In this document: positions 5,766 through 15,127 of the stretch, piece after piece | How positions within the stretch are numbered: position 1 is the first letter of the stretch | How the letters are laid out: the number at the start of each line of letters is the position of its first letter | Virus record (IMG/VR): IMGVR_UViG_3300030331_005519 | Location: 1-28,359 of that record | DNA: 28,359 nucleotides | Strand: one strand, 5' to 3' | Source: a virus | Notes under the pieces: generated by a model | Seen by the model: only the letters and a program-made list of their open reading frames with translations | What the model was told of the DNA's origin: nothing | Databases searched by the model: none | Program-made: the position numbers and the translations under genes

Positions 5766-7952
5766 ATGAATGGAACTTTATTTTCTTCAGACTTTGTAAT
5801 AGATGCAAATGGTAATGAAAGACTATTAGAAATCAATACTGATACTGGTTTTACTCAAGACTTTATTGATAATAATCTTTCCTTTACTGATTTTTTCTCA
5901 GTATTAAGTTCTAACAATATTACTGAAGTAGTAGTTATACATAAAGAGTTTCAAAGAGAGTTCGTAAAAAAATTAAGAACAGATTTAGAAGCTTTCGATG
6001 ATACTATTACTTTTACAGTTCAAAAAGAAAACGCAGAATCTATTTATCCAACAGCAGTAGCTGATGCTGCTAATAAATTTATATTAAGACTAGCTTATAA
6101 CGAGAATGCATTACTTGATTCAACATATGCTAAAAATAATTACAACTTATTAAAATTATTTTATGATAATGATAACTCTGGAGCAGTTACTGAATTTTAT
6201 TATTCAGGCTCAGATGGAATAGTAAACACTGTAATAGCATCTGCAAATAGCTCTTCTTTACCTGATTACGTTACTAAACCAGTAGAAGTATGGAATTCTG
6301 CTAATACTTTTTATAAGCAAGATTTCAATACATTAACTGGAAGTATAGAATCAGATGATTTTATACAAAAGTATCATCATAATACTTCAGAAGAAGAAAA
6401 TAGTAGCGTTACATCTTATAGAGTATTTTCAGTAGCATATGGTTCTAATATTGATATTCTACATTTAGGAATGTATAAGCAGATAGCTATTTTAGATATT
6501 CCTAACTCATTAACAACAGCAGCTAATGGAGCATTGGATACTAAACATTATTACGAATTTGCTTCTAATTATCCTAAATTTGATGGAGAAGGAGGAATAC
6601 CGAGTGCTGCAGCTGTATTTTTACCTTCAGGCTCTCAAATCGTTTCCAACTTAAGTGTAGGAGATGAAATAAGTTCTTTTCATGTAGAAGGATCACCAGA
6701 TGCAGATTCAGATGCAATATTAACAGATTGGAAACATCCTGGCAATGAATTACCTTCAGGTTCATTTCAAACTTCTTCTTTAGTTGAAGCTGTAAATAGT
6801 TTAAATGCTAAAAATAATATATTAGCTAAATTAGTAATGAGTAATGATGATATAGTATACTCTAGTCCTAGTACATTATTTTTGACTCATGTAACTGAAT
6901 CAAATGAATTAACTTACAAAGGAGCTTCTCATATTTACCCAGGATACTCTCTTGTAAAAAATGATGGATCTAGCATAGAAGTTTCTCAAAGTATTTTAGA
7001 AGTATACGATAGCGCTCAACAAATTTATAATTTAAATATAGAAACTACTGACCTTTATATTGTTAGTAGCTCAGGAGTATTAGTTCACAACTGCTTTGCT
7101 GCTGGTACTACGATTACAATGGCTAATGGTAGTTTAAAAGCTATAGAAGATTTAAAAGATTATGACGATGTATTATGTTGGAGTCACGCTTCAGAAGAAT
7201 TAATTTCCGGAAGAGTTGAAACAGTATCTAAAAAACTCAGCGATCAAGTTTATACTATCAAACACGGACGAGAGAAAACTTTAGTTACTGCAGAACATCC
7301 ATTTTATGTAGTTAATAAAAGTGAGTATGTTGCTGCTAAAAACTTATTAGTAGATGATATTTTTATTTCGGACGTTGGATCTGAAGTTAAAGTAAAAGAA
7401 ATCATACCTCCTGAAAAAGATGAATTTATAGAAGTTTATAACCTAGGTAACGTTTCCCCAGTCCATAATTTCTTTGCTGATGGAGTATTAGTTCATAATT
7501 TTAAATTACCTCCTGGAGGATTATGTTGTTTTGTAGAAGGTACTGAAATTAGTTTAGCTAATGAAGATATAAAAAATATAGAAGATATAGTAATTGGTGA
7601 TGAAGTATTATCTTGGAACGGAGAAGAGTTAGTAGTAAGTAAAGTAATAGATATCGAACCAACAGTAGTAGGAGATAGAGATTTATATACTATTAATGGA
7701 GAAGGAATATGTAATATCGAATTCACACCAGAGCATCCTTTCCTTACTAAACAAGGATGGAAAGCTTTAAAACCAGATGTAGAAGAATTTGGTATATTAG
7801 AACCTGGAGATGAGATAAATTGTTGCGGAGAATGGAAAGCTATTTCTTCTATAGATGTAATAGATTCTAAACCAGATCAAAGAGTATTTAACTTTACAGT
7901 AAAAGAATATCACAACTATGTTGCCAATGGTATTATAGTTCACAACAAGTAA
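5766..7952 (+). CDS. Multidomain protein with three tandem Hint (intein-like) domains
   Basis: A 728-residue protein. Residues 1-280 are unassigned; FVIDANGNERLLEINTDTGF (10-29) recalls the C-terminal D..NG..RLLEIN strand of ATP-grasp/tubulin-ligase folds, a weak hint only. Residues ~285-442, 443-578 and 588-727 are three Hint modules. Modules 2 and 3 begin CFAAGT (Cys443) and CFVEGT (Cys588), have TAEHPF (508-513) and TPEHPF (654-659), and end HNFFADGVLVHN and HNYVANGIIVHN. Module 1 ends GVLVHN (His441-Asn442) directly before Cys443, but has Phe285 where Cys1 is expected and a degraded TxxH block. Residues after HN are Cys443, Phe579 and Lys728 (the last residue). This favours cleavage-type bacterial intein-like domains over full splicing. 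It is probably expressed late. Confidence 0.8.
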   Translation: MNGTLFSSDFVIDANGNERLLEINTDTGFTQDFIDNNLSFTDFFSVLSSNNITEVVVIHKEFQREFVKKLRTDLEAFDDTITFTVQKENAESIYPTAVADAANKFILRLAYNENALLDSTYAKNNYNLLKLFYDNDNSGAVTEFYYSGSDGIVNTVIASANSSSLPDYVTKPVEVWNSANTFYKQDFNTLTGSIESDDFIQKYHHNTSEEENSSVTSYRVFSVAYGSNIDILHLGMYKQIAILDIPNSLTTAANGALDTKHYYEFASNYPKFDGEGGIPSAAAVFLPSGSQIVSNLSVGDEISSFHVEGSPDADSDAILTDWKHPGNELPSGSFQTSSLVEAVNSLNAKNNILAKLVMSNDDIVYSSPSTLFLTHVTESNELTYKGASHIYPGYSLVKNDGSSIEVSQSILEVYDSAQQIYNLNIETTDLYIVSSSGVLVHNCFAAGTTITMANGSLKAIEDLKDYDDVLCWSHASEELISGRVETVSKKLSDQVYTIKHGREKTLVTAEHPFYVVNKSEYVAAKNLLVDDIFISDVGSEVKVKEIIPPEKDEFIEVYNLGNVSPVHNFFADGVLVHNFKLPPGGLCCFVEGTEISLANEDIKNIEDIVIGDEVLSWNGEELVVSKVIDIEPTVVGDRDLYTINGEGICNIEFTPEHPFLTKQGWKALKPDVEEFGILEPGDEINCCGEWKAISSIDVIDSKPDQRVFNFTVKEYHNYVANGIIVHNK

Positions 7953-12451: not shown

Positions 12452-12979
12452 ATGATTAACCAGGAAGTAATACTTACTAAAGAAGAATGCCAGACTATTA
12501 TAGATCTGAATCACGAGTTTAAAAGGAGTAGAGTACATTCTGGTCAATCAGAAAGAGCATTGAGTAAATCCAGAACTAGTTATGAAAGTATAATTAAATC
12601 TGAAACTATTTCAGACTTACTCCTTCCTAAATTATTAAAGTATAATATAATAAGTTTACCTGAGTATTGTAATGTATCAAGATATGTAGAAGGTCAATGG
12701 TTTGAGAAACATTCTGATGCAGGGTATGCTAATGTACATAAACGAAGATTTAAAACTTTAATAGTTCAACTATCTAACCCGAATGATTACAAAGGAGGTG
12801 AGTTAGTAATTTGGGATCAAAACGAGAATGAAACTATATCAGATACAGCAATAGGTAATATGATTTTATTTGAATCTAAGTTGCTCCATCAAGCTAATAA
12901 GATTAAAAGTGGTACAAGATATTCGTTAGTATTCTTTTTAACAACAGATAACTTTAAAATTGATAAACCTTTAATATAA
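12452..12979 (+). CDS. 2-oxoglutarate/Fe(II)-dependent oxygenase (prolyl hydroxylase-like)
   Basis: The 175-residue protein has the double-stranded beta-helix motifs of the prolyl-4-hydroxylase group. NVSRYVEGQWFEKHSDAGY holds His87-x-Asp89. YKGGELVIWD (113-122) is the conserved GG.L strand. GNMILFESKLLHQANKIKSGTRYSLVFFL holds the distal His146 and the 2-oxoglutarate-binding Arg156. The enzyme would hydroxylate a protein or small molecule using Fe(II), oxygen and 2-oxoglutarate. Related genes are common in large marine phages and their substrates are mostly unknown. It starts at the base after the upstream stop and ends 4 bp before the HAD gene. Confidence 0.85.
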   Translation: MINQEVILTKEECQTIIDLNHEFKRSRVHSGQSERALSKSRTSYESIIKSETISDLLLPKLLKYNIISLPEYCNVSRYVEGQWFEKHSDAGYANVHKRRFKTLIVQLSNPNDYKGGELVIWDQNENETISDTAIGNMILFESKLLHQANKIKSGTRYSLVFFLTTDNFKIDKPLI

Positions 12980-12983
12980 AAAT

Positions 12984-13322
12984 ATGGATAAAAAGAATAC
13001 TTACTTTGTAGATATAGATGGAACGATCTTAAAATATAGAAAGTTTGAAACTTATAAGAGTTCTAAAGCTGAAGTTATTCCTTCAACCTTAGAGTATTTA
13101 CAGAGAGTCAAAGAGGAAGGCCATATGATAATATTAACTACAGCAAGACCAGAGGAGCTAAGAATACATACAGTAATGGAGTTAAATACTAACAACGTTC
13201 CTTATGATAGATTAGTAATGGGAATAGAAAGAGGTCCAAGATATCTTATTAATGATATGGATCCAAAGATAAAACAAGAAAGAGCTATTGCATTAAACTT
13301 AATTAGAGATGAAGGGATATAA
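12984..13322 (+). CDS. HAD-superfamily phosphatase
   Basis: The 112-residue protein shows all main HAD motifs: FVDIDGTIL (nucleophile Asp10 and acid Asp12), IILTTARPE (Thr52/53, motif II), and INDMDPKIK (90-98, the metal-binding Asp of motif IV). There is no room for a large cap domain, so it is a small uncapped type like those acting on nucleic-acid ends or macromolecules. It is the last gene before the non-coding, structure-rich region. The substrate is unknown. Confidence 0.75.
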   Translation: MDKKNTYFVDIDGTILKYRKFETYKSSKAEVIPSTLEYLQRVKEEGHMIILTTARPEELRIHTVMELNTNNVPYDRLVMGIERGPRYLINDMDPKIKQERAIALNLIRDEGI

Positions 13323-13512
13323 TAAACTTACAATAAAGCAAAGACTCCGAGGGTGGGGCTTTGATATGGACCAATTGAGGGAGAGTGAGGGGGCGCTTTT
13401 CTCCTCTCTCGACCGAAGGTCGCCACGCGCATTTTCGACTAACGTCTCAAATGATCTTCCTAACTACTGCCATTACTCCGGTCTGAGGACAGTAAGGAGT
13501 TATATGGAATAA
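13309..13512 (+). CDS. Doubtful ORF across a G+C-rich structured island
   Basis: A 67-codon frame overlaps the HAD gene by 14 bp. Its codons differ sharply from the rest of the window (GGG, GCG, CGC, CTC and TCG recur), and positions 13381-13440 contain 36 G/C out of 60. The product has no recognisable fold. Several perfect hairpins occupy the same bases. I think the frame is open by chance over an RNA or DNA structure, or over transferred DNA. It is listed because it is long enough to be called automatically. Confidence 0.2.
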   Translation: MKGYNKLTIKQRLRGWGFDMDQLRESEGALFSSLDRRSPRAFSTNVSNDLPNYCHYSGLRTVRSYME

Positions 13513-13772
13513 ATAAAGGCTGAGGTATAGTAGACTTTGGTTAATACTCTATATCATTTTATATTAGATAATAGGAGAGAGACTATCTAAGCCATATTAG
13601 ATAAAGGGATATAAGCTATAGATACCATAAAGCCTATTAATAATAGTGAGTGTATATATTCATATATTAATATACTTATATAAACATATATGTTCTATAG
13701 AATAAACAGATAGTAACGTATAAAATATAAGGGTAATAGATCAGGCACCCACCTCCCTCCCTTCTTTTTTTT
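13340..13772 (+). ncRNA. Candidate large structured RNA region
   Basis: G+C-rich hairpins: GGGAGAG (13379-13385) with CTCTCTC (13404-13410, one G-U pair), CGACC-GAA-GGTCG (13410-13422), and ACTCC (13475-13479) with GGAGT (13496-13500). A+T-rich inverted repeats follow: TTAGATA/TATCTAA (13564-13590), CTATT-AAT-AATAG (13634-13646), GTATAT/ATATAC (13652-13675) and AACATATATGTT (13683-13694). A polypyrimidine tract with T8 ends the stretch (13746-13776). GAGGGAG-a-GTG-a-GG (13377-13390) can pair with CC-CAC-CTCCCTC (13748-13759), a possible long-range closing stem. Placement in a phage genome and size recall GOLLD/ROOL-type RNAs, but I cannot match a known family. It could instead be an origin or packaging site. 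Confidence 0.4.
13537..13567 (+). promoter_or_regulatory. Orphan promoter TTG-N20-TATATTAG
   Basis: TTG 13537-13539 and TATATTAG 13560-13567 have the same 20-bp spacing as the gene promoters, but no gene follows for 270 bp. Transcription would enter the inverted-repeat-rich stretch and could stop at the T8 tract near 13765-13772, giving an RNA of about 200 nt. Confidence 0.5.
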
Positions 13773-13776
13773 CTCT
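13746..13776 (+). terminator. Polypyrimidine tract with T8 run
   Basis: CACCCACCTCCCTCCC is followed by TTC, eight T and CTCT, an almost pure pyrimidine run of about 30 bases. GGG (13730-13732) may pair with CCC (13748-13750) just before it. A U-rich 3' end of an RNA is one reading; a purine/pyrimidine strand-asymmetric DNA element is another. Confidence 0.35.
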
Positions 13777-13802
13777 ATAACGGGAAATAATTAAAGAAAT
13801 AG

Positions 13803-13833
13803 TTGGATATATGAAATATTTTTACTATATTTA
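13803..13833 (+). promoter_or_regulatory. Promoter TTG-N20-TATATTTA (copy 8, leaderless)
   Basis: TTG 13803-13805 and TATATTTA 13826-13833 are 20 bp apart. The box ends 3 bp before ATG 13837 and no nearby in-frame alternative start exists, so the mRNA is predicted to begin at or next to the start codon. Confidence 0.7.
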
Positions 13834-13836
13834 AGC

Positions 13837-14112
13837 ATGAAACAAGTTAAAAAACCTTATAACCTCAATGAAGATTGTAAGCATACATTACAAGAGGTGT
13901 TTGATTATATTAAACTATCCTCTTCGCTTGATAGATCTAAAGAGGTTGTTAAACAATGGATGAGATCTAACTATGACTTTAAAAAAAGAAACATAGAAAG
14001 ATACTTCCAGAATGTAGATAGTGTTAATACCGTTGATGAGTTATTTATATACCTATTTAACTCTACCAATAAAGGGTATGTCACTAAAATGAGAATTAAT
14101 AACAATTATTAA
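13837..14112 (+). CDS. Hypothetical protein (91 aa)
   Basis: A 91-residue basic helical protein (MKQVKKPYNLNEDCKHTLQE, then SLDRSKEVVKQWMRSNYDFK). The ATG lies 3 bp after the promoter -7 box, so translation is probably leaderless. Two to three helices are likely, including one that could act as a recognition helix, but no DNA-binding family is recognised. It stands alone between two non-coding regions, with a membrane microprotein 12 bp downstream. Confidence 0.6.
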   Translation: MKQVKKPYNLNEDCKHTLQEVFDYIKLSSSLDRSKEVVKQWMRSNYDFKKRNIERYFQNVDSVNTVDELFIYLFNSTNKGYVTKMRINNNY

Positions 14113-14124
14113 ATAAAGGTTATA

Positions 14125-14235
14125 ATGAAAAGGTTATATAATAAACTCAAGGAGCCTATAGTAAGTTTCTTATTTATAGCACTAGTATTTTACTTATTGT
14201 ATATCAGCCTATGGACGTTTTGTCCTTGTCCATAA
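14125..14235 (+). CDS. 36-aa membrane microprotein
   Basis: The frame ATG 14125 to TAA 14233-14235 gives MKRLYNKLKEPIVSFLFIAL then VFYLLYISLWTFCPCP: a basic N-terminus, one membrane helix and a Cys-Pro-Cys-Pro end. AAATAAAGGTTATA precedes ATG, a variant of the leader seen at 1217, 9975 and 10542, which supports translation. The function is unknown. CPCP could bind metal or form a disulfide outside the membrane. Confidence 0.5.
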   Translation: MKRLYNKLKEPIVSFLFIALVFYLLYISLWTFCPCP

Positions 14236-14247
14236 AAGGCCTATATA

Positions 14248-14329
14248 GTACCATTAGTCTGATTTAAGACTGATCTACATATGCCATCAATCTGATATAA
14301 CACTGCCAGTATAGTTCCCTATACGGTAC
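14248..14329 (+). ncRNA. Compact multi-helix element (candidate small RNA)
   Basis: GTACC (14248-14252) pairs with GGTAC (14325-14329). Directly inside, ATTAGTCT (14253-14260) pairs with AGACTGAT (14267-14274, one G-U). GTATAG (14309-14314) pairs with CTATAC (14319-14324), ending exactly where GGTAC begins. ATCA/TGAT around 14286-14296 may form a fourth short helix. The closing stem stacks without gaps on both inner helices, as in an RNA multi-way junction. It is not a tRNA: there is no T-loop signature and no 7-bp acceptor stem. Confidence 0.4.
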
Positions 14330-14692
14330 CTCTATGGCTATATCTGCCCAGACCTATCTTCCTCTTTCTCATGACTTTTTACCTATAGGTTTATATATAA
14401 ATATATATAGATATATAGAGATACTAAGATTGGCCTATAAAAATACAGGATTTATACGGGATTAATAAAAATAAGTATAAATTATTACCTATAGTACTAT
14501 CTATTGTGGTACTTATCGTTATACTTACTGGAATAATATTGGTAATCCTTTGGTGATACCTTCAGATCCAATATACTAACAATTACTCTATAATAATATA
14601 AGAAGTTTTTTGGTAGTTTCCAACGAAAACCAGGGAAATTTTCCGAAAAAAAATTTTGTATATAGGGGTTTTTTATATATTTATATGAAATT
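14330..14692 (+). other. A+T-rich region without a firm gene
   Basis: This stretch holds alternating TA runs near 14390-14420, a possible non-ATG membrane ORF (14461-14556), A-tract/T-tract DNA near 14640-14660 (GGAAATTTTCC, CCGAAAAAAAATTTTG) and TTG-N17-TATATTTA (14656-14683) before the gene at 14693. That last pair has the right boxes but a 17-bp spacing, so it is at best a variant promoter. Nothing else is recognised. Confidence 0.4.
14461..14556 (+). CDS. Possible membrane microprotein without ATG start
   Basis: The frame ending TGA 14554-14556 reads INKNKYKLLPIVLSIVVLIV then ILTGIILVILW from the ATT at 14461, which would be the start. The hydrophobic composition and a short basic lead-in match the other membrane microproteins here, notably the one at 14125. 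There is no ATG, GTG or TTG in frame before the upstream stop, so it is either initiated at ATT or is the remnant of a gene that lost its start. Confidence 0.2.
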   Translation: MNKNKYKLLPIVLSIVVLIVILTGIILVILW

Positions 14693-15127
14693 ATGAAGAA
14701 AATCGACCCTCATACCTTATTTTCTCTGTTCGAAGCCAATGATGAACAGGTTTATGAAGAAAATAACGTCACAGAAGTGTTACAAAATCCTTATGTCCTT
14801 ATGGGTATGGTAGTAAGAGGGGTAGATAACTTTTTCCTATTAGATAAAATTTACAGCAAAAACCATAAGGAAGAATATCTTAGAAGTAAGGATAGAATAA
14901 AACATAAATACTTTTCAAAGCTTTATACCTATTTAGAAAGGATAAAATCCGATAAATTCGAAACAAAATACATTATTGGAGAGACTTTTGATAGTGGAGA
15001 AGTAAATAAATCGTTGCATACTATGTTATATTACTTTGAAAACCTCGAAGAATATGAAAAATGTGCAGTAATCAAGAAATATATCGATTTACTTTACGAA
15101 AAACCCAATGTTCGGTTGCATATTTAG
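14693..15127 (+). CDS. Hypothetical protein with UVR-like C-terminal helix
   Basis: A 144-residue soluble protein. The C-terminal part (FENLEEYEKCAVIKKYIDLL, about 115-134) resembles the UVR motif found in UvrB and ClpC-type proteins (E.LE.YE.CA..K..ID.L), which mediates helical-hairpin protein contacts. The N-terminal part is helical, with NPYVLMGMVVRGVDNFFLLD and a Lys/Tyr-rich segment. I do not recognise the rest. Codon use is slightly different from the first half of the window (more CTT and CCC). A 17-bp-spaced promoter-like sequence precedes it. Confidence 0.6.
   Translation: MKKIDPHTLFSLFEANDEQVYEENNVTEVLQNPYVLMGMVVRGVDNFFLLDKIYSKNHKEEYLRSKDRIKHKYFSKLYTYLERIKSDKFETKYIIGETFDSGEVNKSLHTMLYYFENLEEYEKCAVIKKYIDLLYEKPNVRLHI

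Follow-up and report, generated by a model that had tools for sequence, protein, structure and literature searches.

A short RNA element of about 58 nt, here called module A, lies beyond a HAD gene in an AT-rich virus DNA (IMG/VR record IMGVR_UViG_3300030331_005519; the window denotes all 28,359 bases of this stretch), and we are highly confident that it is a real structured RNA. Comparison of its relatives shows A to be kept as a sense-strand structure independently of protein, even though in the window it is embedded in a small protein-coding gene. The best explanation of the locus, in which we place moderate confidence, is a dual-coding transcription unit in which A serves as an RNA with a partner shared among its copies.

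The window probably stems from a tailed phage of Bacteroidota, since it encodes a baseplate wedge protein, carries promoter-like GTTG-N~20-TATATTW sites and holds an element that is kin to one in Flavobacterium phages; the phages with module A are large, mostly uncultured viruses that probably have Bacteroidota as their hosts. The layout of the locus is given in Table 1. As originally noted, a G+C island is present (36 of 60 bases over 13381-13440, by count; GC content 0.51-0.56 vs about 30% in the surroundings), several hairpins lie in its region, and a T8 run occupies 13765-13772. What had been treated as a gap beyond the HAD gene is, however, not wholly noncoding: its 5' half overlaps the 67-aa ORF, which itself overlaps the end of the HAD gene. 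Elsewhere in the window, the two C-terminal segments of a 728-aa protein (5766-7952) are similar and, judged by eye, Hint-like; the protein matches only PHROGs of unknown function.

Table 1. Features of the module A locus, in window coordinates.
Feature	Position	Strand	Remarks
67-aa small ORF (GWGFDM...PRAFSTNVSND...CHYSGLRTVRSYME), overlaps module A	13309..13512	+	flank codons pN/pS 0.13
RNA module A, full extent of the match to covariance model R1	13377..13434	+	63.7 bits, E 6e-18, the window being itself among the source sequences of R1
Stem P1, 5' arm 13383-13392, 3' arm 13401-13410	13383..13410	+	register approximate
Hairpin P2, CGACC-GAA-GGUCG	13410..13422	+	covaries in 19 versions, with 76/76 cells Watson-Crick paired
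Almost invariant single-stranded tail CCACGCGC	13423..13430	+	found only in A copies in two ~170-kb genomes
Optional hairpin C (AUUU-UC-GAC-UAAC-GUC-UC-AAAU)	13431..13452	+	paired in 93.5% of cells over 11 distinct versions
Region B, AT-rich, conserved, downstream, little supported structure	13513..13780	+	no significant unguided covariation
Polypyrimidine and T8 tract closing B, probable transcript end	13748..13772	+	T-run of at least 6 in 23/31 relatives
Phage-type promoter serving the next gene (GTTG-N20-TATATTT)	13802..13832	+	ten sites of this type occur in the window

The case for a structured RNA is made by the comparison of relatives and not by thermodynamics, since the folding energies by themselves say little: that of A is scarcely below those of shuffled sequences (mean z -0.6), and z amounts to -0.9 for 13325-13520, +0.2 for 13520-13790 and -2.2 for the whole 466 nt. 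Aligned cores share one architecture, in which P1 is followed by P2 and then by a tail, (C/A)CACGCGC. P2 adjoins P1 directly and takes the form NNNC-GAA-GNNN, with a GAA triloop and an invariant C-GAA-G tip. Its 19 distinct versions (stem variants GACC/GGUC, CCCC/GGGG, CACC/GGUG, CGAC/GUCG and CAAC/GUUG, plus extensions) are Watson-Crick paired in every one of 76 pair cells, 20 of which have both sides changed; by our home-made test, which compares such cells with shuffles, none of 500 shuffles matched this double-change score, and slid controls were paired in 10-47%. For P1 and P2 together, in 38 sequences, 85.9% of cells are paired with 35 double changes, again reached by 0/500 shuffles. P1 pairs a purine-rich 5' arm with CUCUC-type pyrimidines across a loop that is mostly CGUUU, and is less secure on account of its low-complexity arms and uncertain alignment register; swapping its arms between homologs was uninformative (p = 0.25). 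Hairpin C, which is present in a subset of the relatives and absent from others, is paired in 93.5% of cells with 11 double changes (0/500 shuffles), its outer stems reading AUUU/AAAU, GGAU/AUCC, GAAU/AUUC or AUAU/AUAU. Two copies (L115 and L116) are without P2 and keep the core alone, and a candidate pseudoknot between loop and tail (GCGU with ACGC) is retained in some, not all, copies. The tail occurs twice per genome in the two related ~170-kb genomes, on the sense strand in each case. Judged by compensating changes among relatives, the original prediction of paired stems is thus partly borne out: P2 is supported, hairpin C is supported in the subset that has it, P1 is supported in part, and the stem proposed to close the whole region is not.

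That closing stem, between 13377-13390 and 13748-13759, had been taken to enclose a single domain of about 380 nt. The window's own sequence allows this pairing (duplex -24.4 kcal/mol); nonetheless its arms do not co-vary, arms swapped between homologs pairing equally well or better (p = 0.95). Moreover, this stem and P1 compete for the same bases. Unguided covariation analysis of the whole 31-sequence alignment likewise returned no significant column pair. A conserved structured RNA does exist in the region, in the form of A and its covariation, and the single large domain does not hold up. The suggested comparison with GOLLD and ROOL is unsupported. These are large RNAs, often found near tRNA islands (PMC12286853), and like A they are structured phage RNAs that were recognized by comparison and have no assigned function (PMC12286853). 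They extend over hundreds of nt with an ornate consensus, whereas A comprises only some 58 nt, has no ornate consensus and has no match in Rfam; a large closed structure of their kind was rejected given the behavior of the closing stem and the zero significant unguided pairs. At gathering score, the Rfam covariance search of the window found no match, GOLLD, ROOL and ribozyme models included, and a search of 12950-14700 at E up to 10 yielded no relevant family and again no match to GOLLD, ROOL or any known class of ribozyme. A tRNA search found none in the window; in the two ~170-kb genomes, tRNAs are the sole Rfam matches, and these few tRNAs lie kilobases from A and B. The orphan promoter that had been placed within the region (TTTGG...TATATT) is not conserved, as it occurs in strict form in the window alone among 31 non-redundant homologs, a set from which L030, 92% identical to the window, was left out. 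Matches to the promoter-like pattern GTTG-N~20-TATATT number ten in the window (1158, 2576, 5091, 8097, 8691, 9920, 10482, 13802, 15239 and 17402), and several of them recur as similar blocks ahead of genes.

By its pattern of substitution, the ORF at 13309-13512 is a genuine 67-aa gene under protein selection, the flanks of A (WGFD...; C.Y.G(L/M)...SYM) evolving with the low pN/pS listed in Table 1. Among relatives gathered solely through B DNA or through the HAD protein encoded upstream, synonymous change drops about 4.5-fold, from 0.333 in the flanking codons to 0.073 in the codons of A. The relative L060 has A in another reading frame and retains both protein flanks; substitutions in P2 alter the encoded amino acids (DRRS, PPKG, PPKV, STKS) and never break its pairs; and A and B remain in relatives whose ORF is missing or shortened (L027, L049/L058/L093 and L103). 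For these reasons we regard the stretch as being under both protein and RNA constraint, and in this sense as dual-coding. In L035, the ORF with A continues from a gene upstream (MIIDNFKPNLTPREVIESGAFGGSYFG...) as a single fused product of 252 aa that has the A segment at its end; relatives of the upstream fusion partner in other phages directly follow another copy of A.

The relatives were collected with an 18-base pattern of GC-core DNA, which identified 18 IMG/VR stretches, and with further patterns for B and for other hairpin variants; with the exception of the immuto phage, all homologs are metagenomic contigs. In the first set of about 25 contigs, 13350-13780 is conserved throughout at roughly 68-92% identity. 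Many homologs were gathered by patterns including part of A, a choice that makes A seem more conserved than it is. With a pattern for B only, 11 of 11 contigs found also contain the GC core of A, and among 16 relatives of the upstream HAD gene the element accompanies two, the closest ones. Other contigs possess the GC-rich motif of about 60 nt alone, or the motif with the end of B located 0.6-0.9 kb further on. In four contigs (L061, L047, L048 and L083), this interval between A and the 3' end of B holds small ORFs, and here the two seem to travel together around variable cargo.

R1 detects one to three copies of A in each of 20 records and 71 matches in the collected loci, nearly all of them strong. 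The contexts of 70 unique copies are diverse: 32 lie inside small ORFs, 24 come after a stop codon and 14 are placed otherwise. Many of the after-stop copies follow groEL and a gene of about 55 aa, at the end of the groEL operon, and region B is missing there; the small gene often resembles the histone H1-like Hc1 (Pfam E 1.6e-4, just under the curated cut-off). This is also the arrangement in Flavobacterium phage immuto 2-6A, where an unannotated copy (MW353175.1, 42439-42492) lies past groES, groEL and a gene of 57 aa. An intrinsic terminator comes after A in L110-L112 and L115-L117, with its T-run beginning about 40 nt past the tail; in a simple scan, a hairpin with a T-run at about that distance was seen in eight copies, and most copies had no terminator within ~110 nt. 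The order is reversed in L113 and L103/L107, where a terminator lies before A, and in some contexts A is found 10-35 nt upstream of a start codon. Among isolate phages, a 43-nt search returned an exact core match in immuto phages only, and a 3-kb query taken from the window region had no match in known isolate phages. In the literature that was searched, no description of such an element was found.

Region B is conserved in sequence across the 31-sequence set, and in most members it ends in CAGG...pyrimidine-T-tract-CTCTATATAG. This polypyrimidine/T-tract probably ends the transcript, and the hairpin before it is weak and uneven. The alignment fold of B is only moderately more stable than column shuffles (z -2.8), and averaged base-pair probabilities reveal no strong helix. 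Given this moderate z, the lack of unguided pairs and the weak terminator hairpin, we report B as a conserved region of uncertain nature and not as a demonstrated RNA domain. In L042, about 75-80 nt of extra sequence are found in its AT-rich part (about 6279-6204, minus strand). Further downstream, about 0.5 kb past B, the window contains a second conserved noncoding element (14282-14420) with no Rfam match, whose core at 14293-14321 (TGATATAACACTG.CAGTATAGTTCCCT) is >90% identical in several phages. Between the two lies a 91-aa ORF (13837-14112), which among the viral contigs recurs in a single near-identical one (L001); the DNA match to close relatives resumes only past this ORF.

In the explanation that we favor, the small gene carries A within its coding sequence, followed by the optional hairpin C and by B, and its transcript probably ends at the polypyrimidine/T-tract of B, before the next gene's own promoter (13802). 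A would then act as a sense RNA near the 3' part of transcripts, where its unpaired CACGCGC tail would be presented to a single partner common to all copies, either a protein of phage or host or an RNA target. One common partner is suggested by what the copies share, namely sense orientation, a G-rich core and the unpaired CACGCGC. Whether A serves as a shared recognition module close to transcript ends strikes us as an evenly balanced question; that it is a released small RNA is conceivable and on the unlikely side. In the groEL context, for instance, A together with the adjacent terminator could be released as a small RNA of ~90 nt. Rather unlikely, in our estimate, is the more elaborate proposal that A forms the core of sibling small RNAs, produced by cleavage or termination from the mRNA 3' parts of the groEL operon and the small-ORF unit, which would act in trans via CACGCGC on a host or phage target, with A in the small-ORF unit also encoding part of a selected protein. 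Small RNAs derived from 3' UTRs, such as GlnZ, which is released from the 3' UTR of the glnA mRNA (PMC9731577), resemble A in being structured and near the end of a coding transcript, and some copies of A directly precede a terminator; unlike them, however, A lies inside coding sequence in the window, and several copies have no following terminator. A strict 3'-UTR role would also fail to fit every copy, since in L113 and L103/L107 A is located past a terminator. Three candidate roles, as a 3'-end small RNA, as an operator bound by a protein and as a put-like antiterminator, would each agree with some of the data.

A phage RNA-binding protein could bind A as a cis operator on several mRNAs and control their translation or stability, in the way that T4 autoregulatory proteins act on their own mRNAs. 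This alternative, which we hold to be rather unlikely, would account for a compact pair of hairpins with an invariant single-stranded stretch recurring in several transcripts per genome, and for those copies that shortly precede a start codon; nevertheless, the copies share no constant downstream gene, A often precedes a terminator or sits inside an ORF, and a candidate binding protein was not found. In our view it is improbable that A works in cis on transcription, for instance as a pause signal or put-like antiterminator, with the nascent RNA contacting RNA polymerase and altering nearby termination. The HK022 put antiterminator RNA (PMC9378689) provides the precedent, being like A a short phage RNA with neighboring stem-loops that works as the sense strand, and part of the A copies do place two adjacent stem-loops near terminators. 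However, A is situated at operon ends or within small ORFs, and not near an early promoter, and in L113 and L103/L107 the terminator lies upstream of it.

We consider it very doubtful that A and B act as DNA, whether as a dispersed repeat or as a site of replication or recombination with its AT-rich part serving for binding or unwinding. GC-rich hairpins beside an AT-rich, sequence-conserved region of weak RNA structure, in one to three copies per genome, would suit such a role, but P1 is rich in G.U pairs on the sense strand, where the opposite strand would have A.C, and the groEL copies do without B. A replication origin was discarded after GC skew displayed no switch at the element in the two ~170-kb genomes, which have nearly all of their coding sequence on one strand. 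Finally, it is extremely improbable that protein alone explains A, with its hairpins as by-products of codon use: 31 of the 32 copies inside ORFs keep an identical frame, which like the selected flanks would agree with this, but the synonymous drop, the copies past stop codons or without an ORF, the intact P2 pairs over varying amino acids and the other frame in L060 all contradict it.

Several further candidates were considered. Rickettsia palindromic elements are palindromes embedded in protein reading frames and elsewhere, as A is; unlike them, A has one covarying RNA architecture, fixed genomic positions and few copies per genome. A host-derived element was dismissed, as R1 gave no credible match in 792 Bacteroidota genomes, only five tail-less, chance-like hits of 23-29 bits, in a search whose stricter filters could let rare copies escape; the same result makes a CRISPR-repeat mimic (RNA anti-CRISPR), which would resemble the repeats of host arrays, somewhat less likely. 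An HDV-like ribozyme layout, judged by eye, was set aside because the element offers no space for the P3 helix. Targeting of rRNA by the tail was set aside, one 16S and one 23S rRNA offering no notable complement; two phage genomes offered none beyond 8 nt.

Taken together, we argue that module A very probably represents a new structured RNA family, absent from Rfam 15 and clean in its base-pair covariation, in a group of large phages that are almost uncultured. Its link to the groEL operon and its overlap with protein-coding sequence make it unusual, and the copy in the cultured phage immuto 2-6A, which infects Flavobacterium sp. LMO8, renders its expression and function directly testable.
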